Part shown: positions 1 to 55,910 of the stretch, piece after piece | Layout: the number at the start of each line of letters is the position of its first letter | How positions within the stretch are numbered: the first letter of the stretch is position 1 | Assembly: GCA_033065855.1 (NCBI GenBank) | Contig: JAVXUO010000128.1 | Span: 268,501-332,500 of the forward strand | Direction of reading: 5' to 3' | DNA length: 64,000 nucleotides | Source of the DNA: Escallonia rubra | Taxonomy: Eukaryota; Streptophyta; Magnoliopsida; Escalloniales; Escalloniaceae | Made by a program: the position numbers and the translations under genes | The notes under the pieces: generated by a model | Told to the model about the DNA's origin: nothing | Databases searched by the model: none | Seen by the model: only the letters and a program-made list of their open reading frames with translations

Positions 1-3000
1 GGAGGGAACATCAATGGGAAGCCAACATATGCACGACGTTCAATCACGGCAACAAAAAAACAACATGCAACAACAAGGGCTAATACACGAGAACATGGCA
101 GCAATACCCATATCATCAAAATAAATATAAATCATAGGTTTGCAGGCCACTACAGCAACGTTGCAACATGATGGGCGCTGAAAGTCTCAAGAGTCTACCG
201 CTGAGCCTATAGATTGGACCATCCAACATCAAACTTGGCCTGCCGTCTCAGCTACTCTTCCTTTTGACCCTTCACCTCGGCACGCCGCCTCTGTAGGTTG
301 GCCACCTGCCTTTATAGGTCGGCCAGTTGTCTGTCGATCTCGGCCAACTCACCAGCAATCTCTGACCTCTCCTCCTCTAACCTTGTCCATTGCCTCTCTA
401 GCAGTGTCTCATGCATGCATACTAGGGCCAGCCTCTCCCCCACAGCACTTCCCTGACTCCTCGACCGAAAGAACTTCGCCAACCAATCCAAATGCAGGCC
501 CAATAATGTAAATGGTACGAAAGAGACCGCAATATGAACTCTGAAGTCCAGCCCGCTAGCAGCATACTAGCAAAGGGCATCAACCAATCCACGAAGCCGG
601 TATACAGCCACCTCAGAAGCACTGGGTTCCCCACAGTCACCCCTTCAAATGTTTGTGGATAGGCCACCTTCATAGCCTTCAATCGTCGTCTCGGTAGGAT
701 GCTCAAGACTCACCCACGATACCAAGTCTACCTGCCCGACCGAGGACCCACTACTAGCATCATCGGTTTCCGCACTAATGCCACCCGCTACAAGAGTCTC
801 TGACAATCCCATAGTCGTTTGTGCACCAATAGTCGTTGAGTACATCGCCAAAAAGAGTGGCACCAATATCAACAGCTGACCCCGACGATGTGTCCTGAAG
901 ACGCACTGGCTGAACATGAGTCTCCTGCCAGTGCACCGGGGCTGTCACCACAGGTTCCCCACGATCACCTATAGCGGCCTCTGTCTCCATGCCCGTCCAC
1001 CAGTCACCACCGGCATCGAACATCGGAGTATCGCCCAAAGGTTCGCCATATAAAGCTTCCACCGTCTCTTCCGGGACAGGCAATGACCTCGATTGTCTCT
1101 CCGGCTCCACAACATACTCCACAGCCTCGGTCTCCTTCGTCATCCCGACATCTAGTGTCTCGACCTCATCAGCCTATGCTATCTCAACTGCCTCGGCTGC
1201 CATAGCCTTCATCACCTCGGCCTCTGAGCTCGGCTCGCTGCACTCCTCGCTGGCTACATCATCGAGGTCCTGTCAAAACAACCATCAATAAAAATATATA
1301 TCAGACCATTGGCAATTAGCACATGCAACTGGAATTGATAAAGGAAAAAAAATGCTAACCTCGGAGTCTTGCTCATCTGACACATCGCACCGCCTCTTCG
1401 ACCCTGATATGTATGGGGCTGACGTGCCCGTGCCGACCTGTCGAGTAGTCTCCATTATCCCAACTCATAATGAGACAGGGGACCATTATTGGCCCCCGGA
1501 ACCCTAGGCACATGCATAACCAGATCCTCCCTCATGTCACCCCTCTGGGCATCGTCATCAGGTCCCTCAGTACCCTCATCAGCATCCCTCTTCGAGCTCC
1601 CAACGGAGCTCCCAGTAACTAGCGCTGGCATCCCATATAGTCTAGCAACTGAGGCCGATATCAAGCTCAAAGCTCTATCACAAGAAAAAACATCAGCCCA
1701 CCGACGTGTGTCCACTGGCTGTGCCAACCACTCTGCCCAGCTATCTCATAGCCGTTCCCACCACTGTATGTACCCTACTGACACCACCCTGGCTGACAAC
1801 GAACCAGACTGCCTCCACTCTGTAGTCAGTGTCGACCACTGACGGACTTTGTCATATCGTGTGTACTCGAAGGCGGTCACCACATTCCACGGGCTATAAT
1901 ACCCACATGGGGGCTCCAAATCAAAACCAAAGGCATGTGAAAGCCGATCAAGGCTATACCTCGCGACGTAGTAGTGATAATCGGTGGGCTTCCCGCCATC
2001 ATCTATCATAATAGGGAGCCACCCCAGGAAATATGAAACGAGTAGTGTTAGCTGTCTCGCTCCCAAGTCTCATTTCCTGGTCAGTGTGGTCACGATATCC
2101 TGCATATGCAACCATGGTGGCACCTCATATGAAGAATGCATGTCCATGTATAGCCGTGACGAGCACGCATCCTGCCTATTTAGGACCTGCACCAAAGGGC
2201 ACTCCGGCCTCCTAATGCCCGCCCATGCATATGCCTGCTCACCGCCGCACCACTAAGCCACCTGGCGTAATGGCCTGCCTGGCTGTGTCATCGTACCCAT
2301 CGTCAGAGACGAATCCTCATGGGGGTACCCCGTCAGCCGATAGTCAGGATAACACTCATACATATACCGCTACAGGAACATCCAGTCCACGTACGTCGCC
2401 ACCTGATATCGATCATGTGATCGCTTCACGTCATTTACAAACTGATCTCGACGTGAATATAAGGTGCCCAGATACACGGGAGCCAGGTCGACGCGCCTAC
2501 CCTACGCCATACGAATAGCAAGCGGGAACACCCTAGGGGCAATGCCATCCTCTGGTGTCCTCTCAAACACAAACCTACAGGTATAGACAGATAGCATACA
2601 TCAGGACTCTATCCTACAGTACAGTGCATGGCAGAGTGAAGTGTTATCAACTACAAAAATTTTCTAAGTACAAGTTTGAGATATTATATACATGGCAAGC
2701 GTGACACATATACAACATATACAAGAATAAAGAAAGAAGACAATACAAAACTTACCTCGACAAGAACATGGCTAAGAAGGCCACCATCTCGTATCTCTCC
2801 TTGCCGTGGTACGGTCCCATAACAAAGTCAGCAGCATTACCCAGGTTATGTCCCGTCTTCGCCTGCGCAACACTGAAGAAATGCTTGATCCACCCACTAT
2901 ATGTCCCTTTCTTATGCCTCTTTGTCTCGGCCAAGATGTCTAACAGCTGTGTCTATAGTACACGCTCCTCGTTGCTAAACAGGGGTCACTCTCACATCCT

Positions 3001-4600
3001 CCTTCCCATGCATAGACAACCCTGTCAGCATCATCACATCAAGCAACGTCAGCCCCCCCCCCCCCGATCTCTCCGAACTCTGTCACAAAGGTATACGACT
3101 GGGTGCTCCATCTGGACAATAGTAGGGTCATACCCGACGTAACCATGTAGAGCTCCAGCCCCCTCGTGGTAATATCTATCGCCGGTAGCAACCCCAATGA
3201 TTGCAGCATCCCAGTCCGCTCCGGACACTCCAACATATAATCACACCAGAAATCCCACCCTACCGGCATTGCACTATGGCTCTTGAACACCATAGGCGAC
3301 CAGGGCATGTCCCCCCTCTCGGCCAACAGCGTCGATATGTATCTCAGCGACATGAGAGGTGCCTCCTCCCAGCTCAGAGCGCAAACATAAGGCGATGGCA
3401 CACGAGGCTTCTCTCCTATTGACGAACCACTTTACAGCGAAGTAAAAGCTCCATCGGCCACACGCATAGACAACTCCCTCTATAGCTCTCGGTCTGGCGT
3501 ACTGGGCACGACCCCCTTCACTCCCAACAAAGTGTTCGTCTTGCTCGACTCGAGATCAAAAGTCCTCACCCCTCCATCATCAAACGTCAACGGCACCCCC
3601 GACCCCCGATAGGCTCTGGCACGGCCTCGGCGCGGGCGCCGGTACGGTCGCTGTGCCCCGCAACAATCGCGACGCGCTAATCATTGTACCTCTCGGCCTT
3701 GCCCACTGCTTCCGCCTTATTTTCTTCACAACATTCACCGGCTCGGCATGCTCGCCTTCTGCCCCTTGCTTGGCCACAACCTCATCACCACGCTCGGACA
3801 CCCCACCTTGCCTACTATATTCGGGCACCTTGTCCTTTCCTTTGCCTTGGCCACTGCCACCCTCCAAACCCCGCGATCCCTTTCCCTTCGCCGAGCCCCT
3901 TACACCGGCCAACCCCCTCCATACCCGCCGACCCCTCTCGCCCGTCGATGGGGCCTTTGGCCCTTCCTCCTCCACTTTCCCCTCTCCTTCCACTTTCTTC
4001 CCCTTCCCCTTTTTCCCACTCCCTAACATCATAGCCGAAGCACCAACACCGGTCGAGCCCTCAACGTCGGCTGACCCACCAACACCGACCGAATCACCTC
4101 CACCCCGGGTGACATCAACACTGGCCAACCCACCCCCACAACGGCCAACCCCAACACCGGCCGATGCACTCCCTCCCCCACCGACCCTTAAGCCGGGCGG
4201 CCGACCCACCCAAGGTCACCGACGCCTTCGCTCGGCCGACGCCTTCTCTCTTCTTCTCCCCTCATTCCCTTCCCTTCTTCCCTCCCCCTCTTTCCATCCC
4301 TTCCTCGCGGATTTCGGCCTTCCCTCGCTCCCCCTATGGCCTTCGGCCTCCCCACCACGCCGCCCCTCGGCCACGGTCGAAGCCCCTCATCTTTCTCCCC
4401 TTCTTTCTTCTTTCTTTCCCCCCTCTCCTCCTCTCTTCCTCCCTTTCCCCTGCCTCCTTCCCTCCTTTCCCCATGCCCGCTGACCCCCTCTCCCCGTCGA
4501 CCCTCGGCCACGGCCGAGTGCCTTGGGTCAGCTCGGTGGGTCTCGCCACCACCTCTTCTGTCTTGAATGAGTAAAGTGAGGTCAAAGACTCCCACCTACC
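1..4600 (-). mobile_element. Antisense PMD gene of a Tat-like LTR element (copy A), fossil
   Basis: A minus-strand coding remnant of an aminotransferase-like plant mobile domain (PMD) protein; it starts near 4595 and runs off or ends near 240. The order is a low-complexity Gly/Ser/Arg/Lys-rich N-terminal region (about 3580-4590), the PMD core (about 1740-3420) and a Glu/Arg-rich coiled coil (about 240-500). The family is known from free host genes and as cargo in MULEs and Ty3 elements. It is assigned to an LTR element because the 4600-6925 block next to it recurs beside a second PMD 5' segment at 33061-34340, where the next LTR block leads into a Tat-like gag region. The element is broken, with many breaks. 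Large plus-strand frames such as 3653-4483 are shadows of its GC-rich N-terminal part. A MULE-borne PMD is the main alternative. Confidence 0.6.
1746..3401 (-). pseudogene. PMD core domain (fossil)
   Basis: The segment at 3039-3401 reads a Trp-Ser-Thr...Tyr-Thr-Phe-Val-Thr-Glu-Phe-Gly-Glu-Ile-Gly stretch, the recognisable PMD motif in which a conserved Trp and Thr-His/Tyr-Thr-Phe precede the Gly-Glu of the fold. The segment at 2752-2934 carries the downstream motif ending YEMVAFLAMFLSR. The segment at 1746-2066 carries a further Tyr/Trp-rich stretch. The molecular function of PMD proteins is only partly known; host members (MAIN, MAIL1) act in silencing and genome stability. This copy is non-functional as read. 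Confidence 0.6.
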
Positions 4601-25282: not shown

Positions 25283-26274
25283 CTAAAAAATATATATATA
25301 AGTCATCAGTATACATAGGGTGAGAAATTGAAGGAGAAGATTTGCTGGCTTTAATACCTTCAATTTCCCTTTGTCTTTACGCCTCAAGAAGAGATAAGGA
25401 CAACACCTCAGCACAAGGGATAAAAAGGTACCCTTGCCTGAGACCACAAGAAGGATAAAAGCTGGGAGTAGGAGCCTCATTCACCAGTAAGGAATAAGAG
25501 ACTGAAGTAACACACTAAACCACAAGGTTCAACCAATGGGTAGGAAACCCCAAACGAGAAAGGACAACTTGGATAAAATCTCAATTTAAACGATAAAACG
25601 CTTTGCTCATGTCAAGCTTGAGAGCAACCAAAATAGCACCCCCTTTTTTCTGCCGACGGACATAGTCAGTTAATTCTTGAGCTAATAGAATATTATAAAA
25701 AATAAGTCTGTTAGGCACAAGGGCACTCTGAAAAGGTGAGATAAGTTCGGACCTAATCGGGCCCAACCGATTAACCAAGACTTTAGAGATGATTTTGTAG
25801 ATCACATTACACAAACTGATAAAATGAAGGAGAGCGAATTTTAGGAACTAAGGTAATGAAAGAGCAATTAGCCAGCATTTTCTCTAAGAGCAGAAAGGAA
25901 AGAACAACTTTAACTACCAAAGGACCTAACACAGTCCAACAACGTTCTTAAAGAACCGTAGGAATTTCATCAGGCCCAGGGGCTTTGAACCCACCCGATT
26001 GGAAAACTACTTTTTTAATCTCCTCAGGAATGAAAAGTTGAAGAAGGTGATTGAAATGAACATTCGACAGAGTTACAAAGGGTAAAGAGTTTAAGTAGGA
26101 AAGCAATTCATCCCGATGCAAAAGAAGATTAATAGAAGGTCTGAATTGTTTACTAAAGAAGGAAACGAGGTAACTGCGAATGCTATCAATGTCCACCAAT
26201 TCAGTACCCATATCATCAGTAATATAGTGAATATGATTAGGGTCAAATACACGTAGGTACCCTGAAACTACCAC
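25283..26274 (-). pseudogene. LINE ORF2 reverse transcriptase domain
   Basis: The polymerase that copies LINE RNA into DNA. Visible motifs: KAPGPDEIPTVL (fingers entry, about 25950-25985), QSALVPNRL, motif A ALKLDMSKAFYRLN with the catalytic Asp kept and the usual Asp of KAFDR replaced by Tyr (25581-25640), a frame-shifted GLRQG region near 25430, and the catalytic box read as YTDDL instead of the usual YADD (about 25300). Several frame changes show that it is not functional. The Pack-MULE at 26240-27619 splits the upstream part. Confidence 0.7.
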
Positions 26275-26440
26275 AAAGTCTCAATTGAGGGTCCCAAAGT
26301 TTAATTTTTACACATAAGGGTCTGCAACTACAAATTTGCAATAAGTAAGTACATCCGTCCAAATTCCTAAAGATCTAGCCCTTCCGTCAGGGGTAAAATT
26401 GTCTGGACATGTTTAAAATCTTCTTCTATTCTCTTCTTCT
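26240..26440 (+). repeat. Left TIR of the Pack-MULE
   Basis: About 200 bp that pairs with 27420-27619 in inverse orientation. The match runs from the terminal GGGTCAAATACACG through GGGTAAAATTGTC and GGACATGTTTAAA with only scattered differences, and fades into CTTCTT-rich sequence. Confidence 0.85.
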
Positions 26441-26737
26441 TTAATTTTTTTCTCTTCTTCTTCTTTAAATCAACTATTCTCTTCTTCTTCAATTTTTCTA
26501 TCCCTCCCGCTGACGCATCTTCCTCACCTCTTCCACGAGCCCAACACCACCGACTCCACCGCAGGCGCTAACGACGTCGCTTGACTTCTCCGGCAACACC
26601 GATGTCACCAACTTCACCGGCTCAAGAGATCTTCAAACCCTAAACCCTCCACGCCACCGCCTGCCACCTATCAGCCGTCGACGGAGCCCTAAATCCCGAT
26701 TCGCGACCTGACCTAGTTGAGCTAGTGACCCTATTTT

Positions 26738-27020
26738 TTATTCAACTGATGATGATCGGGAAGTTACTGTGGCAACTAGGGTTTCTGGGTTTGTTTTCAA
26801 TTGGGGCTTTGGTAACGAAGCGGCAGCATAATTGGAGATTAGGCTGTGCAAGGTGTGGTTTGGGATTAATGAAAGGAGGGTCTGACAAGGAGATTGCAAT
26901 GTCTGGTAGCCGGAGTCCATCCACTGCTGGATTGACGGCCGGTCAAAAGTGTGGCCGGAGGAGAGAATAACTGGGTCTGTCATTATCTCTAGCGAGATTG
27001 GGATTTGTTTTCTGCCTGCG
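26738..27020 (-). pseudogene. U-box E3 ligase fragment (PUB8/9-like) captured by the Pack-MULE
   Basis: The minus strand reads PISLEIMTDPVILSSGHTFD, then RPSIQQWMDSG, then LIPNHTLHSLISNYAAASL. This is the first two-thirds of a plant U-box, the RING-like fold that recruits E2 enzymes for ubiquitination. The middle (about 26890-26925), where Arg-Thr-Cys-Pro is normally found, is out of register through compensating small indels and reads QTLQSPCQTLL. The usual residues just before PISLEIM are also altered. After the U-box the frame continues about 30 codons to a stop, with none of the ARM-type repeats of full PUB proteins. The parent is probably a PUB8-type gene elsewhere in the genome; that placement is from memory of the motif. 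Confidence 0.8.
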
Positions 27021-27419
27021 TAATAGTTTTCTTTCCCTCTGTTTGTGCCGATCTGGTGGCCCTTGGCGATGGGTCTGGCCGGTGGGTCAGGTGATGGAGC
27101 TCCGGCCAACTTGTGGTCCCCGGCGATGATGTTGCGCCGATTATTGATGGCGAATATGTTAGTGCGCCACGGTGGTTGTGGTATTGGCACCGGTGGTGAT
27201 GTGAGGAGACGGCGTCGGCGGTGATGGTAATCTGATGAGATGAGACGGTATGGTGGTGGTTTGACTGTGTTGATGTTGATTTAGGTGATTTGGCTTCTTT
27301 GTGTATGCTAGATCGTTGGTGGGGCTTGGATAAGTGCCGAACTGGGTAGGAGGAGTTGAGTGAAAATTTGAAGAAGAAGAAGTAAAAAGAAATTAAAGAA
27401 GAAGATAAGAAAAAAGTTG

Positions 27420-27619
27420 AAGAAGAGAAGAGAAAAAAAATTTAAACATGTCCGGACAATTTTACCCCTGACGGAAAGGGCTAGATCGTTAGGAATTTGG
27501 ACGGATGTACTTACTTATTGCAAATTTGTAGTTGCAAACCCTTATCTGTAAAAATTAAACTTTGGAATCCTCAATTGAGACTTTGTGGTAGTTTCAGGGT
27601 ACCTACGTGTATTTGACCC
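27420..27619 (-). repeat. Right TIR of the Pack-MULE
   Basis: The inverse counterpart of 26240-26440. The few differences by eye suggest a fairly young insertion. Exact identity was not calculated. Confidence 0.85.
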
Positions 27620-28064
27620 ATATGATTACTACGAGGACATATCACTGTAGATGTGTGGAACAATTTAGTATTCTTCTCATCGCCTTCTAGCCAGCAAAGT
27701 TTTGACCGTTGAGCCTAGAAAATATGTTCACATTCTAACACAAAATAAAGCCTACAACGGTTGTGAAAGTTCGCCAGTCGACTAAGATTCGAGCTGGATA
27801 CTGAGGCTTGGGCTATTGCAAGAGATTGTTGCACATACTTAATATGTGCAAATAGATCTCCAAAACGACTACGGCTCCAAGCATGTAATACCCCCAAAAT
27901 AGATGTAAAACAACGCATCAGATGAAACAAAGGAGATCCAACGGAAGGCTGCGCACAAATATTATTGATAAGTGGCAAACACGAAGGGTCAGATAACCAC
28001 ATAGCCTCAAAACGGTGAGGGGAGGGAAATGAACGCATGATTCGATTGCTGAATAGCCAAATTA

Positions 28065-28631
28065 CTAGCCATTGCAGAGCAAAAGAGAATTATTCACGAC
28101 GGAGAAGCAAGCACCCGATGGAGCTTTTCGTACACGAACCCATGGTGGGGAGAACCTCAAACCCAAGTAAAAGGAGGACCACACCAACTGATATCTGAAA
28201 ACTAAATCTAAAAAGTCTCTAAAACTTTGAACCTCGGGGATAACTGAAGAATTACTGCCAGTTTTCTCTTCAGAGACCAAAACTTGATTAAAATCACCGC
28301 ATAAACATAAAGGACCAGGAAACGGTTCTAAAATCGAAGTAATAGTACCCTAAGTAAAAGGACGAAACTTAACTTGGGGGTGACCGTAAACAAAACTATA
28401 ATATACAGACGAACCCGAGAAGAAAGCACACGAAGTGAGGATTAGGTTTGGATAAACGCTTAGAATAATCAAACAAATGGGAGAGCGCCACCCTAACCAT
28501 AATCCTCGACTTAAACTAACTGGAGGCAAACCAACAAAATCCAGAAACCCAAATTTATGGAAAAGCAAAGCAACCTTACTCAGAGCCATCTTAGTTTCCA
28601 TAAAATACACTATGTCCAAAATAATGAACAC
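28065..28631 (-). pseudogene. LINE ORF2 endonuclease domain (APE-type)
   Basis: The domain that nicks target DNA to prime reverse transcription. The YFMETK motif holds the catalytic Glu (28560-28620), followed by a Ser-Arg-Gly-Leu-Trp-Leu-Gly-Trp stretch that matches the usual GLSGGLALLW region. Near 28280 Asn-Gln-Val-Leu-Val-Ser-Glu-Glu-Lys-Thr corresponds to the GDFN...EK motif of the family. The coding frame changes between the two blocks, so it is broken. Confidence 0.65.
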
Positions 28632-29620
28632 GGATAAGAGAATAAGCTATTAGAACGGTAGATGGCTGACCCATTCCCCCATAATTCCAGCAAAGCATAC
28701 TCGACCCATTGTTCACCTAAAGATACATTATTCCCACCCCCCAAATGTGCATCCTGACCCAATGAGAAATCCAAGGCCACGTGAGATGCCAACGAATAAG
28801 TGGAATTACAGATGTCAACAACAGGAGGGAGGTGAGACACATTAGACAACCACCTGTCTAGAGGATGTTGACCTTGGGAAAACGCAGACAACGCACTACC
28901 GACAACCTCGAGAAAGGGACCCTCCGGCAACGTCTCTGCAGATTCTGGTATCTGGTTAATAAGAGAATCCGAAGGACTAGATAAAGAATAAAAAGTCCCC
29001 TCAAAAGACGCCGGAGTTGCAGCCGGCGAAGGACCATTAGCCGGAGAGACCAAACTGATTCCTTCCATCAAACTATTTCGACTATCAGCTTCCTCAGAAA
29101 TTTCATTGGAAAAAATTTGATCCAACTCCATCACATCAAGAACCTCCCAATTATTAATTATTAATCATATTAATACGACTTGTGCGATTCCAGCTAGTAT
29201 TAGCATACGCACGAAGACGCTTAGTAAACATAGTCCTACGATTTTGATAATAAACCCTAGCATCAACAAGAGGAGGATACTTAACCAGAACATATTCAAG
29301 AAGCTGACGAGCTGGAACAAGGGAGAGATGACAATCAAAATTTACATGTCCAATTACGCCACAACGATAACAAACCTCAAAATTTTCTTATATGAAGCCC
29401 AAATTCAGTTAACATGGCCCTCCACTGTTGGAACATAAACACCAATAATCCAGTTAACATGGCCCTCATCAGAGAGTTCTTCATAGGGGATCCCACCTTA
29501 GTCACTTTTCTGTCTTGCAGGCCATCGATCCAAGTTAGGGTTCCTGATCATATTTTGAGCAGCAACATAATGACGCCATCCGTGGAATCCACTAGCCTAG
29601 CCAATTGACCTCAAGACAAC
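28610..29620 (-). pseudogene. LINE ORF1 (DUF4283/CCHC nucleic-acid-binding protein)
   Basis: ORF1 proteins of plant L1 elements bind the LINE RNA. A zinc knuckle of the form C-Y-R-C-G-x3-G-H-x4-C is readable on the minus strand at about 29315-29370. It follows an N-terminal region beginning near 29680 and precedes a 174-codon open stretch (28610-29134) rich in Ser/Pro/Glu, as in the usual ORF1 tail. In-frame stops interrupt the upstream part, so it is decayed. Confidence 0.6.
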
Positions 29621-31545: not shown

Positions 31546-31743
31546 AGGGGCAGACTTCAAAAAAGAAAAGAAAAGAAAAGAAAAAGGTCCATTCTTCCTT
31601 TTTAGAGAATTTTGTATTCCCCTTCATATCTACATTTAAGACCCACATGCTGTGTTTGGCGACAAGGATAAGGATTCTAGATAGGATAGGATAAGGGCGA
31701 ATAAGGCCGGACAAACTATAATGTCGGATAAGGTCGGATAAGC
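31546..31743. other. Junction between LINE leader and LTR material
   Basis: Contains an (AAAAG)n run near 31560-31586 and short GGATAAGG/GGATAGG repeats near 31665-31745. No gene is supported. Confidence 0.5.
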
Positions 31744-32560
31744 AAAAAGCCCTCGCTGGCTCAATCAACTAACAGGGCTCCGGCCCTCGCGGCGGGATGG
31801 GCTCGCAACCCTAAAGCCCTCGCCAGCTCAATCAAACTGATAGGACTCCGACCGTCGCGGCGGGACGGGCTCGCAACCCTAAAGCCCTCGCCGGCTCAAT
31901 CAAACTGACAGGGCTCTGGCCCTAGCGGCAGGACGGGCTCGCAACCATAAAGCCCTCGCCGACTCAATCAACTGACGGGCTACGGCCCTCGACGCGGAAC
32001 GGGCTCGCAACCCTAAGGCCCTCGCCAGCTCAATCAAACTGACAGGGCTATGGCCCTCGCGGCGGGACGGTCTCGCAACCCTAAAGCCCTCGCCGACTCA
32101 ATCAAACTGATAGGGCTCCAGCCCTCGCGGCGGGACGGTCTCGCAACCCTAAAGCCCTCGCTGGCTCAATCTAATTGACAGGGCTCCGACCCTCGCGGCG
32201 GGACCTCACCGGCTTGATCAAACTGACAGGGCTCCCTCGCCGGCTCAATCAAACTGACAGGGCTCTGGCCCTCGCAGCGAGACGGGCTCACAACCCTAAA
32301 GCCCTCGCCGGCTCAATCAAACTGATAGGACTCCGGCCGTCGCGGCGGGACGGGCTCGCAATCGTAAAGCCCTCGTCGGCTCAATCAACTGACGGGCTCC
32401 GGCCGTCGCGACGGGACAGGCTCGCAACCATAAAGCCCTTGCCGGCTCAATCAACTGACGGGCTCCGGCCCTCGCGGCGGGACGGGCTCGCAACCCTAAA
32501 GCCCTCACCGGCATAATCAACCGGGGGCTCCGGCCCTTGCCCGCACAATCAACCGACGGG
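31744..32560. repeat. 68 bp tandem array, left LTR-like block (copy B1)
   Basis: About 11-12 units with the phrases GCCCTCGCCGGCTCAATCA, GGGCTCCGGCCCTCGCGG and GACGGGCTCGCAACCCTAA. Full units are 68 bp; shorter variants lack a few bases at CAAACTGACAGG. A second array of the same family lies at 34345-34985. The frames across it (for example 32175-32516) are repetitive by-products. Confidence 0.9.
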
Positions 32561-33060
32561 CTTCAAGGGGCTCCGCTCGTAGTGCTCTAGCACGAGGACA
32601 CACCGCCACGGACTCTGAGTATCGAGCTGTGAGCATGTACGCTCATGTTACCAATGATCATCGACACTGCCAGGGCAATGACCCTTGGGTCACTCCGGGA
32701 CGGGAGCAGGTCCTCGGAGGGCATCGCATACGGCCCACCTGGCAGTTGACTGCAGGGGCAACCCTCACCGCTGCCAGGATCTTGGCGCGTCTCATGACGC
32801 ATCTCGTGGGATTCAGTAAGGGCTGGGACTGGAGGCTGGGGCAACGGGCTACTCTGACCATGCTACCGCGGTGTGGCCAGTCTCCTCAGACAGGCAGAAG
32901 AACGCTGCAAAGGCAGGACGACACGATCTCAGGGACCGGCAATTCGACGGACAATCAATACTGTGGGAGCCCCTCCGACGACGTGTCACTCCCGAAAGAC
33001 GACACGTGTCGGTTGATGACACGCGCGCATTTGTGCCTATATATAGTCGGCACTGGCTCT
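32561..33060 (+). mobile_element. LTR-like promoter block, Tat-like element (copy B1, fossil)
   Basis: It aligns closely with 34986-35510 in order and orientation and more loosely with 5970-6600. It ends just after the TATA box, where the sequence passes directly into the antisense PMD segment. This suggests a large internal loss between this LTR and the PMD part. Confidence 0.6.
33001..33046 (+). promoter_or_regulatory. LTR core promoter: G-box and TATA (copy B1)
   Basis: Palindromic GACACGTGTC (33001-33010) is followed by CTATATATAG (33038-33047). Same spacing class as at 6544-6588. Confidence 0.5.
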
Positions 33061-34344: not shown

Positions 34345-34985
34345 CTCATTGTCGCCGCGGGATGGGCTAGCAACCATAAAACCCTTGCCGGCTCAATCAA
34401 CTGACGGGCTCGCAACCCTAAAGCCCTCGCCAGCTCAATCAAACTGACTGGGCTCCAGCCCTCACGGCGGGATGGGCTCGCAACCCTAAAGCCCTCGCCG
34501 GCTCAATCAAACTGACAAGGCTTCGGCCCTCGCGACGGGACGGGCTCGCAACCTTAAGGCCATCGCCGGCTCAATTAAACTGACTGGGCTCCGGCCCTCG
34601 CGGCGGGACGGGCTCGCAACCCTAAGGCCCTCGCCGGCTCAATCAAACTGATGGGCTCCGGCCCTCGCGGCGGGACGGGCTCGCAACACTAAGGCCTTCG
34701 CCGGCTCAATCAACTGACGGGCTCCGGCCCTCGCGACGGGACGGGCTCGCAACCCTAAGGCCCTCGCCGGCTCAATCAAACTGATGGGCTCCGGCCCTCG
34801 CGGCGGGATGGGCTCGTAACCCTAACGCCCTCGCCGGCTCAGGCTCCGGCCCTCGCGGCGAGACGGGCTCGCAACCATAAAGCCCTCGCCAGCTCAATCA
34901 ACTGACAGGGCTCCGACCCACGCGGCGGGACGGGCTCGCAACCCTAAATCCCTCACCGGCACAATCAACCGGGGGCTCCGGCCCT
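34345..34985. repeat. 68 bp tandem array, right LTR-like block (copy B2)
   Basis: About nine units of the same family as 31744-32560. Variant units, including one missing most of its middle near 34840, show unequal exchange. Confidence 0.9.
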
Positions 34986-36090
34986 CGCCCGCACAATCAA
35001 CCGACGGGTTTCAGGGGGCTTCGCTCGTAGTGCTCCGGCACGAAGACACACCGCCACGGACTCTGAGTATCGAGCTGTGAGCATGTACGCTCATGTTACC
35101 ATTGATCATCGACACCGCCAGGGCAATGACCCCCGGGTCACTCCGGGACGGAAGCAGGTCCTCGGAGGGCATCGCATCCGACCCACCTGGCAGTTGGCTG
35201 CAGGGGCAACCCTCACTGCTGCTAGGATCTCGGCGCGTCTCATGACGCATCTCGTGGGATTCAGTAAGGGCTGGGACTGGAGGTTGGGGCAACAGGCTTT
35301 TCTGACCATGCTATCGCGGTGTGGTCGTTCTCCTCAGACAGGCAGAGGGACGCTGCAAGGGCAGGACGACACGAACTCGGGGACCGACAATTCGACGGAC
35401 AATCAATACTGTGGGACCCCCTCCGGTGACGTGTCACTCCCGGAGGACGACACATGTCGGTTGATTACACACGCGCATTTGTGCCTATATATAGTGAATT
35501 CTCGAGCTTATTCAAGGACTTCTCTCTCATTTGACATTTTCACTTTCTCTCTCTAAAACTCATTCTCTCTGGATTTCTAGTGAGTGAAAGACATTTGGAC
35601 TCTTGACATCGGACACTTAACGTTGCACCCTTGACGCGGACTGTCTACCGCCGTCCTTGTTCGTCGTCACCCTGGTTGCGCGGCGCTGCCAGCCCTCGCG
35701 ACCTGCCTGGGGAGCCTTTCTCTCAGCCCTTACTCCATCCTTGTTGTCTCCCACTTTGTCTACCTGGAAACCAACTCAGACTGCATCCTTTGTGGCACCT
35801 TTGCGTGGCATCCGAACCATCTTTCCTCGGCAACACATGCTATGTGTTTTTCGGGCCAAAATTCAATAAAAACGAAGTAGAGACCGAAGGGGTGCGGCGG
35901 GTGCCAGACACCTTCTGGTTGCGTAACTTAGTTCACAAACCCTTATTTTGGTTTCAATAGACTAGTCGTCCTTTTGGACACTTTAGAGTCATTTCAGGAT
36001 TTTTCTTATTTTCCCTAGTTTAAATTAAATAAGATGTCGACTTTGAACTAAAATCCTCTTGGGGATTTTTTCCGAGGTGGTTCGCCATAG
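34986..36090 (+). mobile_element. LTR block ending at the primer-binding site, Tat-like element (copy B2, fossil)
   Basis: The first half is nearly the same as 32561-33060. The middle (35495-35845) aligns with the copy A leader (6590-6920). The last 245 bp (35845-36090) align with 42405-42650, the end of a different LTR (41351-42655). It leads into a PBS-like site and a gag region, so it acts as the left LTR of the 36111-41350 interior. Confidence 0.65.
35451..35494 (+). promoter_or_regulatory. LTR core promoter: altered G-box and TATA (copy B2)
   Basis: GACACATGTC (35449-35458) has one change from the G-box palindrome of the other two copies. CTATATATAG lies at 35485-35494. Confidence 0.45.
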
Positions 36091-39256: not shown

Positions 39257-39870
39257 GCGGTGAAAAGTTTGACTTCGACCGAAAACTTTGGCTTCAACCG
39301 AAAAGTTTAACTTCGACTAAAAAGTTCGGCTTCAACCGAAAATGTTTTGCTTCGAATCAAAACTCTTGGCTTCGACTGAAAAGTTTAGCTTCGACCGAAA
39401 ACTTTGGCTTCGATCGAAAAGTTTAGCTTCTACCGAAAACCATTTTTGAAGACATAAAGAAGGACACTGATCGATTAAGTCGAATGAAAATGTTTGCCTT
39501 CGAATGAAAGTTTCAGATTTGGTTCTTTACTCGAATTTCTGGGAGATCTTTTAAAAAAGGCTTAGTGACAAAAATAAAATGCTTCCAGCTCTCGAATCTT
39601 TGATGTAGTCCAAGTCTTTGTTCAATCCCAATACCAAGTCCAAGCTTTGTTCAATCCAAGTTCAAGTCCTTGTTCAATTCCATGTCCAAGTCCTTGTTCA
39701 ATCCCATGTCCAAGTCCTTGTTCAATCCCATGATCTTTGTCTTTGTTTGATTAGGATAAACCCTGAAATAGTTATCTTAATAATTGTGTTAAGTTAATGT
39801 TAGAAATAATAATTTTGGAATCATCAAAATCAATAAGTCAGCACATAGTACATGGACTCTTTTCAAGGAT
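39257..39870 (+). repeat. 19 bp array plus unique tail, second copy of the 60218 repeat
   Basis: Positions 39257-39440 hold about nine 19 bp units of the form GGCTTCGACCGAAAACTTT. The flank that follows (39520-39860) matches 60740-61030, including GAGATCTTTTAAAAAAGGC-like, CTTTGTTTGATTAGGATAAA and ATCATCAAAATCAA phrases. The frame 39100-39426 crossing it is a by-product. This repeat has replaced or displaced the polymerase part of the LTR element. Confidence 0.75.
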
Positions 39871-43759: not shown

Positions 43760-44900
43760 ATATTTTGCTTCCTTTTCTTACTTGGACATTTATTTGCATA
43801 ATGTCCTTTTTCGCCAGATAACCAGCAACAATCACACTCTTCTGGTGATTTTCCTTTTGGATATGAAAGTTTTTTATGCGGAATGTTAGATTTTTTCTAA
43901 TATATCTACCCCTTGGTTTTGATTTTTCCCTTGATGGATTAAATTTTATTTTTTGAATTTTTTTCCATTTCTTCCCATATCCTTTTTTCATTTCCAAACC
44001 TTTCTTCTCAATTTTTTTCTTCGTAAATTTTGGCTTCTTTTCGCATCCATAGCTGTTTACCATGCTATCGACTTTATAACAACAATCGTAACTCATATGA
44101 GATTTTTTCATATCTTTTAGTGTTTGTCCTTAAGTACAATATTTCTTTAGAACTTCTTTTGCAGTGGCTATTTTTCCTCCTAAGGAATCGCAAAGGATTC
44201 CATAATTTAGGAGTTTAACAAATTATTTTTCCGTTTACTCGTCCTATGATTTAAGAAATTTGGCAAAAAATTGTTTTTGCCAATGGAGGTTGTCTCTGAG
44301 TTCGAATTTGTAAAAATATTTTTTAAGTTCACAAGTGTAACTTTTAAAATAGTACATATCACATATTTGTAGTTTTGTCAAATTTGTGAAGGCAATTTTT
44401 TCTTGAATATGTATGTTATTTATAGATATTTCGCAGAACTCTCTTTAGAGGTTATCTGAATAAAACATTATCCATTTTTCGGAAATGTTAAGCTTGCTCT
44501 GGACTTCAATTATCAGTTCGCTATCTGTTATGCTATTCCAGAACCGAGCTATTTTTCCTCACAAGGTTGCTCGAATAAAATGTTTCATAGCATGCATTTC
44601 TGTTAAATTACTACCTATTATGACAATTCTTAAGGCTTGCGCCCAATTATCGATTATTTCTTCAGTATTCGAAAGACAATCGATATCAAGATATATACCA
44701 TATTGATTTATGGGTTCACTTCTTCCATTTAGGGGACAAAATCAGTTTTAAATTTGTCTTCATAGGGGCGTTATTAGATTTAGAATTTCTTTCTAGATCT
44801 AACTCTGGATTCCATGCTTCTACATAGTTTGGATCAGTTTCTCTGTTCCATAAATTCATATCAGCAAATGTTTTTTTACTCTTGATATGACTCTTTTTTC
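43760..44900 (-). pseudogene. Caulimovirid capsid region with zinc finger (fossil)
   Basis: Recognised by a LDIDCLSNTEEIIDNWAQAL stretch near 44600-44700, a Lys-rich basic region (43900-44050) and a zinc finger of the form C-x-C-C-W-L-x-G-E-K-G-H-Y-A-N-K-C-P near 43785-43830, the hallmark of caulimovirid coat proteins. Confidence 0.65.
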
Positions 44901-45400
44901 TTCTTGTTTATATTGATGTTATTTTAGAACAACTGGATCTATTTCATTCATCATTGTTTTTTTCAAAGATTTTTATTTTTCTACTTTTTCTAAGTAGTCA
45001 TTTATTAATTTTTCTAATTCTTCTACATCCATTCCATGTACGGGGTCCTTGGTGTCTTTTGAGCCACTCGAAGAAGGTTTTCTTTTACATTCGCTACCAC
45101 TGTATGATCTAACCTATTATACATATGAAGTTTTGTTGATATAGTAATTCTTGGTAGTGTCATAACTTTCAAAGTTTGATAAGAAGTTATCTGAGTTTAG
45201 GATGTGGTCTTCACTTCCTAACCCTTTATCTGAATTTTTTAATTCAATTAATGTCTGAGATGTTATATTGTTTAGATTCATGAGATACATCCATTATTTG
45301 ATTAATAATTCGGTTATCTCAGTTTTTCCAATTCCACGATCTGAGTGTATAATTCATGTCATATGATTTAATAAACAAGGGGGGATCTTGCCTTTGATTA

Positions 45401-45413
45401 GGCCATGATACCA
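45401..45413 (-). other. Met-tRNA primer-binding site of the pararetrovirus
   Basis: The minus strand reads TGGTATCATGGCC, close to the TGGTATCAGAGCC complement of initiator tRNA-Met that primes reverse transcription in caulimovirids. It sits upstream of the capsid region as expected. Confidence 0.55.
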
Positions 45414-45499
45414 GTTTTGTATGGCCAATTTCTCTTTTGGTCAGGAATGACATATTCTAAACTTGAGAGGGGTTAGTTTTAGTTTTTTGAGAAGCATGA

Positions 45500-45500
<1 letters not shown>

Positions 45501-45557
<57 letters not shown>
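45501..45557. repeat. (TA)n microsatellite
   Basis: About 28 TA repeats, next to the pararetrovirus end and the palindrome at 45576. AT dinucleotide tracts are known to be favoured integration sites for caulimovirids. Confidence 0.9.
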
Positions 45558-45558
<1 letters not shown>

Positions 45559-45575
45559 GAAAGAGAATATAAGAT

Positions 45576-45602
45576 TAGCCTCACGCAACTTGCGTGAGGC
45601 TA
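45576..45602. other. Perfect 13 bp inverted repeat with a 1-base loop
   Basis: TAGCCTCACGCAA and its exact reverse complement are separated by a single C. It lies just after the (TA)n tract. It could be an element terminus or a hairpin formed at a repair junction. It is too compact for a microRNA precursor. Confidence 0.7.
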
Positions 45603-48350
45603 GCGGCAAAAACTGCGTAGTTTTATTAAAAAAATGAGGTCAGAAATTAAACAGTTAATTCGTTTTCCTCTCTTTTTCTTTCTTTCTCTCTCTCCCCTTT
45701 TCTCCTTCCCGTCTCTCTGTCCCACGCCCTAGCAACGACCGCCCAACCTGTCGGCGCTGCCCAACTTCCCCAATCACCGCCCCAACCTTCCTGCACCGGC
45801 CACCGGCATGCATCCTCCTGCCGTGACAGCACAAGCAACCCACTGCCCAAATTTCCTGCGCCGGCTACCGTCATAGGGTCGTCTTACCGTCGAGGAGAGG
45901 CATTTTTTGGCAAGGGTGCAACGCTGCTGGGCAGAGTATTTGTTGAAAAACATGCCATGGTTGCTGCCAGAGCCCTTGTGAGGCAATTATCTGTTGCAGT
46001 AGCGAGAGAACGGGCATCTTTTTCCCAAAATTCGCTCTGCGTTTCCCCTTTGTTGTACGAGCTATCAAACTTTATCTTATTTTTGCGAATGATTTCTTGC
46101 TTCTTTCATATTGGACATCTTTTGTTTAATTAGTGTACAGGTGAAGAATCTTCACAGTTTCTAACACTGTATATACTTTCCAAGTTGATTACCAACTGTT
46201 CGATGAAAGTCCTAGCCCAAACCATACATCTGTATGGTATCTTATCTCTCGGTAGTATATGGAGAGGCTAATTTCTGGTTCCCTTAGTGTCATTATGAAT
46301 TTATTTGCCTTCATGTAGGTTGTCCACTGGGGCCTGCATATGCAGATATTCGAAAGTTTATAGAGTTCCAGACTTCCAGCTTAGCGTTAATGTTGGGGCC
46401 GTCGTCATTAATGTTGTGGCTGCAAAATCTTCTGGTGATCTACCGTTGAACACTGCGCAAGTTTATTTCTCTCACTTTACTGTTGGCTCGTTGTCACTTT
46501 GTTGCATTTATCAGAATGTGTTTAATATAGTAGTACTATTATTCGGGAAGGCAGTTGGATGTTTGGCCTAGATTTCTTATAGATAACAACCATTGGTCTT
46601 GTCTGCCCTCCATAATTCCTCCCCGAGTATTAACAAGAAACCAAAAGTTAAATTACCAAGTTTGAGGCTATGGTGCACGTTCTGGGGTCGACATATGTAA
46701 ATTTGAACCTGTCATATGTAATAAGGTACAATATTGTGTGAATCTTAAGATATGTTACATCTTTTTCCGTGGACGTGAATATGTTTTTTGATTTATAAGA
46801 ATGGTACGTCTTCACTGTGCTTGTACTTACACAATTATAAATTCTCTTGCTATGTGAAGACTGTCTGAGGCTTCAATTTTTTAGAATCAATTAACATGCG
46901 ACTATAATTTCCTCTTATTTTGAGGCTCGTAAAGTGATATCATGTTAGTTATCATCGGCTCTCGTTATACATGTTGTGAGGCTGATGGCTATACTTACAC
47001 TAGTACAGTGACATTTTCGTCAGAGTTGATGATTTGCTGCTCTTGCATTTCTTTTGGTACATCACTGTTTTTGCAATCACAGTCATTCTGGAAATATGTG
47101 CTGCAAGTGTTGGCTTAGAATCTTACGTTGTTGTCTCTTTTGTCAGTTGTAGTTGTTCGAACTTCTTATAGTGTAAATCTCAACATCTATGCATGCTTTG
47201 AAACTTAATTGTAGCTCAGATTCTGTGTGTTCATCCTTGACAATTGCTTCCCCATGGCATGATTGTCTCTCCTCTTTGGTGGTGCTCATATTAGAATCAT
47301 CAAAACGAATTTCATTTGTATTTAATAGCATTCTCAAGGTGCTCTCACTCTAAATGCTGCCCGGCACCGCCCCCCGCCGCCCCGCCAAGGTTCAACACTG
47401 GCATGCTCAAAAACATTTTTCATCACAATTATTTAAGAGGGAAGGAAGAATAGCGAGGAGAGAGAAAGGCTAGTTTATTTTGTTTGATCTTTTCTGTCCA
47501 TTTTCTGATAGCTTGATGGAATGAGATTATATACCACCATGTCGCAGTTTTGGGATTTCAGACAACCTTTTTTGCTTAAGAGGGTCAAAGAGTTGCTTCA
47601 GATTTTTAGCTTCTTTTTAGACAGTAAGCTGGTGGGATTCAATGGGCAATTATGCAATTTGCCACCCGCTTTGTTGTTCTTACAAGTGACGCTTCTAAAT
47701 GCAGAAATAGAGAAACTGAAATATACATGCCTCCGATATGCAACAGCAACTCAGTGGTTGATTGCATCTTCTATAGCTCAGATATGACCTTGCCATCTTT
47801 TCATACTTTCCATTTCTTCTTGAGGTGCATCTAATTTTTTCCTAATAGCATTTTATCTTGTTATAATGAGTCGTTAATTTCTATTTGTTGTGTTGCAGCT
47901 TGAATGTGATGTGCATGATCTTGAGCCCTGTTTACCTGCAAATTAGCCATCGATAATTCTTTTCATTGATCATCGGATTCCTCAGTGACCAGAAAACTAG
48001 CTAGGAAGCTCTTGATGCTTTTGGGGAATTGGCAATGCATCACAATTCAGAAAATACTGCCATGTCACAGAGATCATTAGCTGATGGATTGATTGCTTGA
48101 GTGGATCTCAAATACACAACTGCTATAACTCCAGTGTTCAAGAACTATTTTTTTCGATTGTATGAACTTCTACATGAAGGTGTTATAATTATTCACGACT
48201 TGTGATACACAAGTATGAGTGCATGATCATGTCCAAGATCATTTTTTTTATGATAGATGACAATCTTTGTATCATATGCGCTTATATTTTGTTGATCTCA
48301 CATTTTAGATGTTGATCTCATATTTTATTCATAATCATGTCGGCACCGGT
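45603..48350. other. Intergenic stretch without a recognised gene
   Basis: A C/T-rich leader-like stretch (45650-45740) and several open blocks with plausible splice sites (46319-46470, 47640-47780, 47900-47946) give the impression of a decayed spliced gene. None shows a motif that I recognise. The longest peptide phrase is FQLSVNVGAVVINVV at 46370-46420. No assignment is made. Confidence 0.35.
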
Positions 48351-48799
48351 AATGAATAACAGGACACGAGGCAAATCAATACGCTACGAACACCTCAATC
48401 AAAGGTAGAATTTATCCTTAACAAACTTAGTTCAGTAAAACACCAAATCCTAATAAGACACAGATATCCATAACTAAGAATGTCATAAAGAATTAAAATC
48501 CCAAAACTAAGCTTGGACTCTCAACATAAATCCCTCCCAACAGACTTTGCAAGTCCAAAGTGCGTACTCCTTATGTAATCTAAACTTGTGTCCCGCAGTG
48601 TTTCTACATACCAATAAGACAATTCAATTATGTCAATAAAAAAGCAAGAAAAATGAAAGCACAACATGAATCAAAGTCATATACAAAAAAACTAATAAAT
48701 AAGAAACCAGTAAAAAAACGGAAAGAGACACCCAAGAAAATAAGAATGTTATACCAAATCTTACGCAACTATTGAACATAATTGCCCTCTCCTTCATCC

Positions 48800-51290
48800 C
48801 TCTGAAATCATGCACCTTTATAAGTTAGTATATACATTTCAAACGATTCACGCAACATGATATTACATTGAAAAGAAAAAAGCTATATGTGAGATTGACT
48901 TCAAAATATACCTTTCGCTTAACACAACCAGTTCGGTAATGGCCTTTCCCATGGCAATATGCACAAGTTCTTTGTTTCTTTTCTTCTTTTGCCAATTCTA
49001 TAGAATATTTCAACCTAGTAGCAACCTTTGGGCGCCCTTTGGTCTTAATAGGGGCAGCTGGGTCACGTATAGAAATTTGATGCATACTTTCAATTTGAGA
49101 AACATTTGTACTTGAACCAACTTGACTAACCATTTTGTCGCCAACAAGTTTCTCCATATTGTTTCTTGCAGCTTGCTTTTCCAATAAGCTATTAAGCCAT
49201 GCATCAATCTCACGTATTTCTGAAGGACAATTTCTTCCATTATCTATTGCCTTAGAAAATTTTGCTCGAACAGACCGCAATGTTAAAAGGCTTACTCCCT
49301 TTTCAGTTGAATAGCTACTGATCTCGTCCTCTCAATCGCCAATATCTCCCACCTTATACCGAGCATGAATTGTCCACCTAGGCAAAATGTAATACTCAGG
49401 AAGATCAATTATTTTCTTTTTCTTCAATATATAAAGGATATGCTTGCATAATATTCCTGCCGTCTCAAACTTAGCACATGAGCAAGTAGCCTTAACACTT
49501 TCTGATGAATAATAGTGAACAATTCGCCATTTCTCTTTATCAACAGTTATCAAACCCACCTTGTACCTTGTAACGCCAGGTTCCTTACTCAATGTTATGT
49601 GCAAACAACTAACACTAGCATTCCATTCTTTCTTGAAGATCTCAAACAAACTACGAGTATAGCATGCTCCAGCTCTTGCTTCAATTGGATGATCATATGA
49701 TAAAACTGCTCTGGAATTCATGGTCTTAAAATCTTCATCTTCCTCGGCATACCTTCGATTATACACTGCTTTGTCATATTTCACAATAAATTCATTCAAC
49801 ATGGTATTAGAATTCACATACCCGTCAAAAAATGAATGTGTGCTTTCACTTCGTCCACTAGTGGTCATGCCAGCAAAAAAAGTATCTTTGAGAAAAGGCT
49901 TTGCCCAATGTGCACGTAGGTTGTACATATTTTGAATCCACAAATTTTCTTTTAAGTCATACATGTCATTCAAATCCACCCATCTGGCCTCAAAATCTTT
50001 AATACTCTGACTTTTTGTCCAATTGCTATGGGCTTCATGAAAGTCATCATATCATGATCGCAAAGGTTGTAGATGTTCCATGACGTGCTTCTTAATGTGC
50101 CATGTGCAAAAACGATGTGGCGTATTCGGAAACACTTTTGCAATTGCATTTCTCATTGCACCATCTTGGTCAGTGATAATTGCAATTGGGTGCCTCTCAA
50201 ACATGCAACGCAAAAAATGCTCAAACAACCACACAAATGTTGCCTCTGTCTCATCCTCCAACAATGTAGCTCCAAAAAATATAGACTGGCGATGGTGGTT
50301 TACTCCAACAAATGGAGCAAATGGCATCCTAAATTTGTTAGTCATGTAAGTCACATCAAATACAATAACATCACCAAACTGTGCATATGATGCCCTTGAC
50401 CTTCCATCTGCCCAAAAAACACTTCTGAGAGAACCATCTATAGCTAAATCCACAGAAAAATAATAACTGTCATCCGACGTGGCCTTCTCTTGAAAATGTT
50501 TAATAATCACATAACATTCTTTCCCCACATTATTTTTTCTTTCGACGCGTATAATACTAGAACATTGTCTTGGAGTTACATCAGCTTCTTCGCTAGGCTT
50601 CATCACATTCACAACCTAGTAATCTGAGAAGCTTTCAAGCCCTCATGGTTAAGGTCAGACACTAGAGACTTACATACGTTTGTACAATGGTATTTACTAT
50701 GAGAACGATGTTTGATTACCTTTGATGGAGTAGTAGTGAGAGGATGGTTATGAACATCTTGAAACTTGTCGACAACCCACACTCCAAACTTTTTTGACAA
50801 AGTAACTTGCATCATCGCTTCACAACCGGTTCTCAAGTCCCTACGCCTTTTTTCGTTCACATTCGGTCTCTTGTCATCCAATTTCTTGAAGCCCTCCTTA
50901 TTGCACACGAATTGCCTCCTAAAAATTGTAACCGTGGCCCTAATCTTATGTGCATTGTGTTTGCGACTAGAAAAACCATTTGAAAGAGCATACTGATTGT
51001 AGAAGTCATATGCCGCTTCCAGCGTATCAAATGTTTTTCCATCTATCAGTTGACTATCAAAATTGTCAAAATTTTCACAGCCCTCATTCTCTCTAGGCGT
51101 TCTAACCTCGTCATCACATTACAAAAGATCACAAACATCATCTACCCTAGGTTCATTATGGACACGAGTATCGAAAATATCGAAATCCGTCAAACCTTCG
51201 TTCGCATCAATTTCCTCAATCGACTGAAAACTATGTGAGCTAAGTTGATGTGCTTCGTTCGCATTTTCCTCATTGGTGTGCTTCCACTAC
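48800..51290 (-). pseudogene. FAR1-related sequence (FRS) gene, decayed
   Basis: FAR1/FHY3 proteins are transcription factors domesticated from MULE transposases. In order from 51290: acidic N-terminus; FAR1 zinc-finger domain (about 51040-50640: DTLEAAYDFYNQYAL, RRQFVCNKEG, TGCEAMMQV, DVHNHPL); MULE transposase domain (50612-50052: FGDVIVFDVTYMTNKF, PFAPFVGVNHH, AIITDQDGAM, HRFCTWHIKKHV); middle region (50050-49530); SWIM zinc finger (ATCSCAKFETAGILCKHILYI, about 49440-49505); and a C-terminal CCHC knuckle (CAYCHGKGHYRTGC, about 48915-48960), followed by a GTATAT donor-like site. Damage seen: TAA at 51119-51121, a 1 bp loss near 50625, and TGA at 50052-50054 and 49332-49334. Otherwise co-linear with full-length family members, so decay is recent. 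It could be a free host gene or an element-borne copy; no flanking TIRs were found. Confidence 0.85.
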
Positions 51291-51537
51291 GAGTCATGTA
51301 ATCGAACCTGAGCTAAGTTGATATAAGTTGTGGCTGGGTTACCTGCCCACACATGCGTTCAACAAAAAACATGCAAGTATTAGCTTACAAAAACCAGCCA
51401 AATAGGCAGGAAATATCATATACGGGTTGGGTGCTATAGAGTACTTAAATCTCGATACCATCGTTGAAGGCTCGTGAAATTTCGTCAAACTTTCATCTCA
51501 CGTATATCTTAACTGGTGTTCTATGTCTAAAAGTAGA

Positions 51538-51638
51538 CCCTTTTTAACCATTAGCTAATAGTTTAATGTTGGTCATCACCAAAGGAATTTTGAATATGGT
51601 ATAAGGTAGTTTTTTAGGCTTACCTCGCATGGTAGTTT
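51538..51638 (+). repeat. Direct repeat left of the hydrolase exon
   Basis: About 100 bp containing TTTTTAACCATTAGC, AGTTTAATGTTGGTCATCAC and TTTTGAATATGGTAT. It matches 52067-52165 with few differences. Confidence 0.85.
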
Positions 51639-51774
51639 TTAGGCTTACCTTGCTAAGTAAAATAAATGGTTATTTCAGTAGTTCCATTTTTTGCATTTCA
51701 AAAGTCCTATTTTAATCCTTGCGTGGTATACAGTTGGTGTGGTAGTTTTTGGATCTTTTAGTTTTTTATTGAAG

Positions 51775-52063
51775 GCATTTGTGGAACACAATGCATGGGA
51801 ACTGAAGCAATACACCGAGGAGCTATATATACTGGGGGTCTGGCAAACGTGTGATGCTGCTTGGTCATAGCAAGGGTGGTGTTGATGTTGCTGCTGCTTT
51901 GTCTATTTATTGGTGTGACTTGAAGGAAAAAGTAGCAGGACTAGCACGGGTGCAGAACCCATATGGTGGCACACCTTTGGCTTCTGATATCCTTCGTGAA
52001 GGCCAGATTGCTGGCAAGGAAACCCAGAGGGTCATGGAGCTCTTAATCTGCAAGCTAATTAAG
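51775..52063 (+). pseudogene. Alpha/beta-hydrolase exon fragment
   Basis: One exon of a plant alpha/beta-hydrolase (lipase-like) protein. It reads NAWELKQYTEELY, then after a small insertion that shifts the frame GSGKRVMLLGHSKGGVDVAA, then LKEKVAGLARVQNPYGGTPL and SDILREGQ. GHSKGG is the nucleophile elbow around the catalytic Ser. An AG acceptor precedes 51775 and a GT donor follows 52063 (ATTAAG|GTATCC), so the piece kept its intron borders and did not come through mRNA. No other exon of the gene was found nearby. The near-100 bp direct repeats at 51538 and 52067 flank it. Confidence 0.75.
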
Positions 52064-52066
52064 GTA

Positions 52067-52165
52067 TCCCTTTTTTAACCATTAGCCAATAGTTTAATGT
52101 TAGTCATCACCAGAGGATTTTGAATATGGTATGAGGTAGTTTTTAGGCTTACCTAGCTTGGTAGA
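52067..52165 (+). repeat. Direct repeat right of the hydrolase exon
   Basis: The second copy of 51538-51638. It begins almost at the exon's splice donor, so it is, or has become, intron sequence. Confidence 0.85.
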
Positions 52166-52314
52166 TATCCATAATTTGGATCATTTGTGAAGATCATTGC
52201 AGCAAAGATCTACGTAGGAGAACAAGGTAATTGGTCATCCATGGGGTCATCTACAAAAGAAAATGTCAAAACTAGAAGAGCGGCCTTGCTGTTGCATTTC
52301 CATCTTAAGATCTA

Positions 52315-52315
52315 C

Positions 52316-52353
<38 letters not shown>
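52315..52353. repeat. (TA)n microsatellite
   Basis: About 18 TA repeats at the left border of the LARD-like element. Confidence 0.9.
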
Positions 52354-52357
<4 letters not shown>

Positions 52358-55760: not shown

Positions 55761-55910
55761 AGCTTTGATACCAACTGTAACACCCCCAACTCCCGAAGCG
55801 TTAAAACGATCACTAAGACAAGTTTTCAAAGTCCAATATCAGTCACAGATTATCTTAGGCTTATGAGTCTACAGAATCTCATACATAAGCTCTGATACCA
55901 AGTGAAACAC
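55761..55910 (-). other. Duplicated LTR/primer-site junction
   Basis: Two copies, about 127 bp apart, of a segment with TAGGCTTATGAGTCTACAG, an AGCTYTGATACCA primer-type site and AACACCCC. They mark the end of the minus-strand LTR and a local duplication of it. Confidence 0.6.

Follow-up and report, generated by a model that had tools for sequence, protein, structure and literature searches.

Within the window analysed here, a stretch of 64,000 nucleotides from the genome of Escallonia rubra, part of a U-box ubiquitin-ligase gene lies between long inverted repeats inside a decayed LINE, which raises the question of how this gene piece came to be there and whether it has any function in its present place. 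A preliminary description of the window had claimed a Pack-MULE with a perfect 9 bp target site duplication (TSD), carrying a U-box ligase fragment and lying inside a LINE. Our analysis leads to a closely similar reading, in which the locus is almost certainly a non-autonomous Mutator-like Pack-MULE that captured the 5' part of the gene PUB8, was amplified, presumably in trans, landed in the LINE and probably carries its gene fragment as a passenger.

A bounded element inserted into a LINE

The element is 1,380 bp long and its limits, 26240-27619, are exactly those first given for it (Table 1). Its terminal inverted repeats (TIRs) have a length of 259 bp and are 90% identical over 261 aligned columns, and arms of such length are not due to chance. 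Both ends of the element start with GGGTCAAATACACGTAGGTACCC in inverted orientation. A second inverted-repeat call returned outer arms of 151 nt that are 95% complementary, including seven bases of the target duplication on each side. The duplication itself is indeed perfect, and a hand calculation gives about 4^-9 as the probability that 9 bp agree perfectly at precisely these two ends. Because the TIRs of a MULE need not be identical to begin with, TIR identity was left out of dating. The element contains two frames of at least 150 aa, the larger of which, when scanned against Pfam, matched only U-box and RING-U-box families and contained no transposase; the U-box match (6e-11) lies in a 180-aa open frame on the minus strand at 26738-27280. 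Long TIRs, a 9-bp TSD, a host-gene fragment, occurrence at several sites and no transposase found are together the features of a Pack-MULE, and the initial classification is upheld on these grounds.

The flanks of the element read as a single decayed LINE on the minus strand. One of six flank pieces scanned, taken from the left flank and entered with one stop symbol omitted, matched the reverse transcriptase family RVT_1 (1.5e-9), and no reverse transcriptase match was obtained in the other five. When the flanks were joined with one copy of the TSD, a single unbroken LINE frame was restored over the site, reading WLEGDEKNTKLFHTSTVICPR and then SNHIHYITDDMGTELVD, which we take to be a familiar plant LINE motif. 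These observations support the view, already put forward in the preliminary description, that the element inserted into the LINE, an event that would have given rise to the 9-bp target duplication.

Table 1. Coordinates of the element, its parts and its host LINE in the window
Feature	Position	Strand	Remarks
Left target site duplication ATATGATTA	26231..26239		identical to 27620-27628
Left terminal inverted repeat, start GGGTCAAATACACG	26240..26498	plus	90% to right arm, 261 columns
Segment A, 60% GC	26499..26668		with PUB piece in 16 of first 20 family loci
Captured PUB8 fragment	26669..27007	minus	parent CDS nt 27-374, codons 12-125 by protein; without ATG
Lesions of captured PUB8 fragment	26669..27007	minus	two frameshifts and 9-nt loss in U-box loop 2
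In-frame TAA (parent: TCA)	26738..26740	minus	seen in 15 of 24 copies, other 9 with the site deleted
Right subterminal segment	27047..27361		87-96% to 9 of 10 fetched family loci without PUB piece
Right terminal inverted repeat	27362..27619	minus	inverted-repeat alignment to left arm
Right target site duplication ATATGATTA	27620..27628		identical to left copy
Host LINE interrupted by element, decayed, with frameshifts and stops	25500..28700	minus	stretch used in joining test, not measured limits

A search of the 64-kb window found no second copy of the element at E 1e-3, and comparison with a plasmid collection gave no match. Other repeats are present in the window. Two related tandem arrays occupy 31740-32540 and 34351-34988, with 31854-33047 matching 34351-35495 at 86%, and further tandem repeats are located at 60213-60753 and 61972-62595, the neighbourhood of the former being related to 39264-39843 at about 68-76%. 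A direct repeat pair, matching in pieces at about 80-93%, lies at 52352-53941 and 56168-57906 and possibly represents the long terminal repeats of a retrotransposon.

The captured fragment matches the start of PUB8

The fragment had been recognized as a PUB-type U-box capture and placed at about 26720-27030; its nature stands, and its extent is corrected to 26669-27007. The parent gene, which it had been proposed to seek by alignment to the same genome, is PUB8. In the 566,129,122 bases and 3,222 contigs searched, with 112 of 212 candidates scored, we found only one intact PUB8 locus (G000:C1968:144151-145248, minus strand; its DNA was fetched as L039), whose protein shares 98% identity with E. 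herrerae RJ639_032635 (P0017). Among the same 112 scored candidates, copies of the element matched PUB8 at 58-87% over parts of its length, and loci outside the element family reached at most 41% over at least 100 residues. A protein search with the fragment returned P0017 at 74%, the match covering 94% of the query, and no other species exceeded 63% among the 120 of 257 hits listed; a separate protein search gave a short Vitis stretch at 67% over one third of the fragment query. At the DNA level, identity between the window fragment and the parent is 87.4% over 349 columns, with 42 differences at 338 aligned sites (K2P distance 0.137). Taken from these comparisons, derivation of the captured piece from the 5' part of PUB8, between 14 bp before the ATG and codon 125, is supported.

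A probable single capture in an amplified family

The preliminary description had regarded TIR homology shorter than 50 bp with no other copies as evidence against a Pack-MULE and had suggested a search for copies with the same TIRs; we found arms of 259 bp and a family at many sites with different TSDs. A 361-bp query covering the left TIR returned at least 43 genome matches, including the window's own two arms, and because only 40 of 1,076 candidates were scored the family may be larger than the copies counted. Six other places match the left end at 95-97% over this query. Our family sample consists of 33 fetched loci in sets of 20, seven and six, the seven having been picked for their PUB8 match. 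Flanking 9-bp repeats are exact at 18 of these loci and differ by one mismatch at seven; one end was not found at six (L012, L019, L042, L045, L079 and L082), and two, L017 and L043, show no match at the ends called, although shifting L043 by one base yields eight matching bases. The flanks of L040 and L044 agree at about 92%, so that the 18 loci with exact TSDs represent at most 17 insertions, and L040 and L044 are, as judged from these flanks, one duplicated locus. An additional insert of about 180 bp within the PUB8 piece is also common to both.

The PUB piece is present in 23 of the 33 fetched loci (16/20, 7/7 and 0/6 in the three sets), a share that is not a rate because seven loci were selected by PUB8 match. 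The remaining ten have the TIRs in common with the others and carry different interiors, and all of them except L082 keep the right subterminal segment. Frames from four loci (L026, L028, L081 and L083), of which the L081 frame may lie outside its element, contained no Pfam family. Across these loci, the element is best read as one member of an amplified Pack-MULE family and not as a lone capture.

Two members of the sample deserve separate mention. At L084, a 2.3-kb family member (937-3267) with an exact TSD, ATAATATAA, lies about 140 bp from a match to the STN7 kinase (795-370) and by position appears to be in or beside an STN7 gene or a piece of one; a captured STN7 piece was rejected, as the match falls outside the element, which starts at 937. 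At L041 (1716-3895), the 9-bp flanks of the ends at 1716 and 3895 differ by one mismatch, the same holds for inner ends at 2529 and 3644, and this element is apparently nested.

Comparisons of the PUB8 piece across copies used 24 sequences, namely the 23 fetched loci that carry it and the window copy. Homology to the parent ends at CDS nt 374 in 19 of the 24 and at nt 376 in one, and in the other four BLAST found nothing past a 35-bp deletion. At the other side, L040, L042, L043 and L044 retain 12-14 bp of 5' leader together with the ATG, and L045 starts at nt 8; 17 of the other 19 copies start at nt 27-34, and L017 and L023 start further in. Because some copies retain the leader and ATG, loss of the start codon probably followed the capture. 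The TAA that replaces the parent's TCA (Table 1) is found in early copies as well as late ones, and the frameshift with 9-nt loss in loop 2 is seen in 16 of 24 copies by a strict pattern; L042, L043 and L045 retain the parent-like TGTCCAATCTC in loop 2. In a tree of the copies, the late ones are grouped with a support of 100 and L040/L044 stand beside them with 99, and the deepest splits are weak (53). Many copies thus share lesions and seem to go back to a single old capture, which modifies the earlier view of a capture particular to this locus: the capture itself is borne out, its uniqueness to the locus is not.

The same scar, LQSPCQT, is carried by three predicted proteins of E. herrerae (P0001-P0003), which suggests that the capture and the scar are older than the split between E. 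rubra and E. herrerae, unless they passed between species. The E. herrerae models RJ639_041866, RJ639_000488, RJ639_038090 and RJ639_006238 (P0001, P0002, P0003 and P0005, respectively) show matches to the interior of the element and probably represent Pack-MULE copies that were taken for host genes in annotation. That several 'U-box proteins' of this species would be transposon copies matters for gene counts.

Possible small-RNA effects on PUB8

A family with so many PUB8 pieces could in principle act on its parent by producing small RNAs from these pieces that silence PUB8, an idea already raised in the preliminary description. Exact 21-mers are shared with the parent (15 in the window copy, 8-70 across all 24 copies), antisense RNA could arise if the element were transcribed from one end or the other, and MULE-derived genes of rice carry 24-nt small RNAs according to the available portion of PMC4858842; such 24-nt species, however, would be expected to act first on the elements themselves. 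Segment maps of 27 loci revealed no inverted duplication of the PUB part, the only duplications of it being direct ones in three loci (L018, L021 and L023), and at 26000-28000 there was no Rfam match at gathering thresholds. On balance we consider silencing of PUB8 by the family unlikely. Effects of small RNAs on PUB8 are possible, would be likelier to stem from other copies, and have in the window copy a weak candidate source. More doubtful still is the wider idea that a genus-wide Pack-MULE family with the PUB8 5' end supplies small RNAs that tune PUB8 in Escallonia; if true, a ubiquitin-ligase gene would be regulated by its own transposed scraps.

Coding status of the captured fragment

In the window copy, the parent ATG is absent, the region of the loop-2 CP motif is frameshifted with a loss of 9 nt, and a TAA follows after codon 101 in parent numbering; by sequence, this copy has neither the start codon nor the intact U-box fold and loop 2 of a PUB ligase. 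No protein constraint of the kind a PUB ligase would show is visible between copies, which diverge near-equally at the three codon positions (0.108, 0.103 and 0.110 differences per site at positions 1, 2 and 3; 24 copies, pooled non-independent pairs), a pattern to be expected where such constraint is lacking. In comparison with the parent, the window copy differs at 11 of 112 first, 13 of 113 second and 18 of 113 third positions. In 19 of the 24 copies the maximum falls on the third position, L015 and L043 show a tie between first and third positions, and in L018, L023 and L046 the maximum lies elsewhere. We infer that this third-position excess reflects constraint on the parent's own branch, which is common to all of these comparisons.

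Might the U-box frame nevertheless be a new functional gene, encoding a mini U-box protein, that evolved from the capture? The 180-aa open frame with its Pfam match, the slight third-position excess of the window copy and the decision of the E. herrerae annotators to call related copies (P0001-P0003) genes speak for it, but the lost ATG, the frameshifted loop 2 with its missing 9 nt and the near-equal divergence between copies do not fit such a gene, and open frames of at least 90 aa differ from copy to copy, with none in L015 and L020. This alternative is in our judgement highly improbable. We regard the U-box fragment instead as dead cargo that is not maintained as a protein, because its ATG is gone, its loop 2 is shifted and a stop follows.

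Superfamily assignment and transposase source

None of 30 MULE-domain loci (of 150 listed), each taken with about 1.5 kb around it, yielded an autonomous element with these TIRs. The only matches between these loci and the element were of 30 nt and at chance level (E 0.38, four loci), and extension of one locus to 9.7 kb brought a single match of 30 nt (E 0.039) and revealed no ends of this kind. Because no autonomous relative with these TIRs was found, the proposed MULE assignment is based on TIR length and the 9-bp TSD and not on a transposase relationship.

FAR1-type MULE genes are abundant in the genome, with at least 150 loci (150 scored of 3,309 candidates; L047-L076 are among them). Open frames of 777-783 aa with equal scores recur in many of the 150 scored copies, which suggests that this family was recently active; the copy extended to 9.7 kb has no long TIRs on its flanks. 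It was rejected as a partner of the Pack-MULE on the basis that no TIR is shared within about 1.5 kb around 30 loci or, for one of them, within 9.7 kb. The window itself contains a FAR1 / MULE transposase / SWIM gene at 48825-51118 on the minus strand, spread over four open frames, three of which have Pfam matches. This gene was also rejected as the autonomous partner, since no inverted repeat of at least 40 nt other than AT runs was found in 44000-58000.

TSDs of CACTA, PIF and Mariner elements are shorter than 9 bp, and those of hAT elements are 8 bp. Membership in another TIR superfamily, as a Pack-CACTA, Pack-hAT or Pack-PIF element, is very unlikely: Pack-TYPE elements do exist in all main superfamilies (PMC8903248, available portion) and no transposase partner was found at the 30 MULE-domain loci, one extended to 9.7 kb, but exact 9-bp TSDs at 18 of 33 loci and TIRs of 259 bp fall within the ranges that the accessible text of PMC4858842 gives for MULEs (TSDs of 8-11 bp, TIRs usually of 100-500 bp).

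For the Pack-MULE, we propose the following history. An ancestor with these TIRs would have taken into its interior a copy of the start of PUB8 that reached from 14 bp ahead of the ATG as far as codon 125, presumably before E. rubra and E. herrerae split, and transposase provided in trans would have amplified the resulting element. The lineage that is most multiplied among the fetched copies would then have lost its start codon and its reading frame across U-box loop 2, and the present copy would have landed in the LINE, creating the 9-bp target duplication, with the fragment probably carried along as passenger DNA.

Comparison with known Pack-MULE families

This locus is an ordinary, well-preserved representative of a type of gene-copying transposon that is already known, and its capture can be traced. 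It leaves existing knowledge of Pack-MULEs unchanged, and it documents the capture and spread of one gene piece in a campanulid, including its parent and breakpoints, its early as well as late copies, and their target duplications. Narrow keyword searches returned no published Pack-MULE study for Escallonia or asterids, and for Pack-MULEs together with U-box the literature available in part yielded only an orchid PIF element.

Rice contains more than 3,000 Pack-MULEs (PMC4858842, in part), and the Escallonia element resembles them, as portrayed in the accessible portions of PMC4858842 and PMC8903248, in its long TIRs, a TSD in the 8-11 bp range, its gene piece and its want of a transposase. 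It differs in its host, which is a campanulid and not a grass, and in GC content, which is 45.8% for the element overall, 34.7% for the TIR and 48.9% for the PUB piece. Pack-TYPE elements that grow by fusion between adjacent copies, as outlined in the available text of PMC8903248, also share TIRs and subterminal sequence while their interiors differ, and L041 looks nested; for the PUB8 capture of the Escallonia family, no fusion intermediate was seen. The nearest precedent that we have seen is PM-ZIBP of tomato, which in the accessible part of PMC3310237 is a Pack-MULE family of 14 copies carrying a fragment of a zinc-ion-binding protein gene, with lengths of 944-1372 bp and TSDs of 9-10 bp in three table rows. 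In both cases, going by that portion of the paper, a dicot family captured one fragment whose parent is present in the genome and was then amplified. The two differ in that tandem TIRs bound 13 of the 14 PM-ZIBP copies on both sides and were not noted in the Escallonia family, and in that the captured gene encodes a zinc-ion-binding protein in tomato and a U-box ligase in Escallonia (PMC3310237, same portion).
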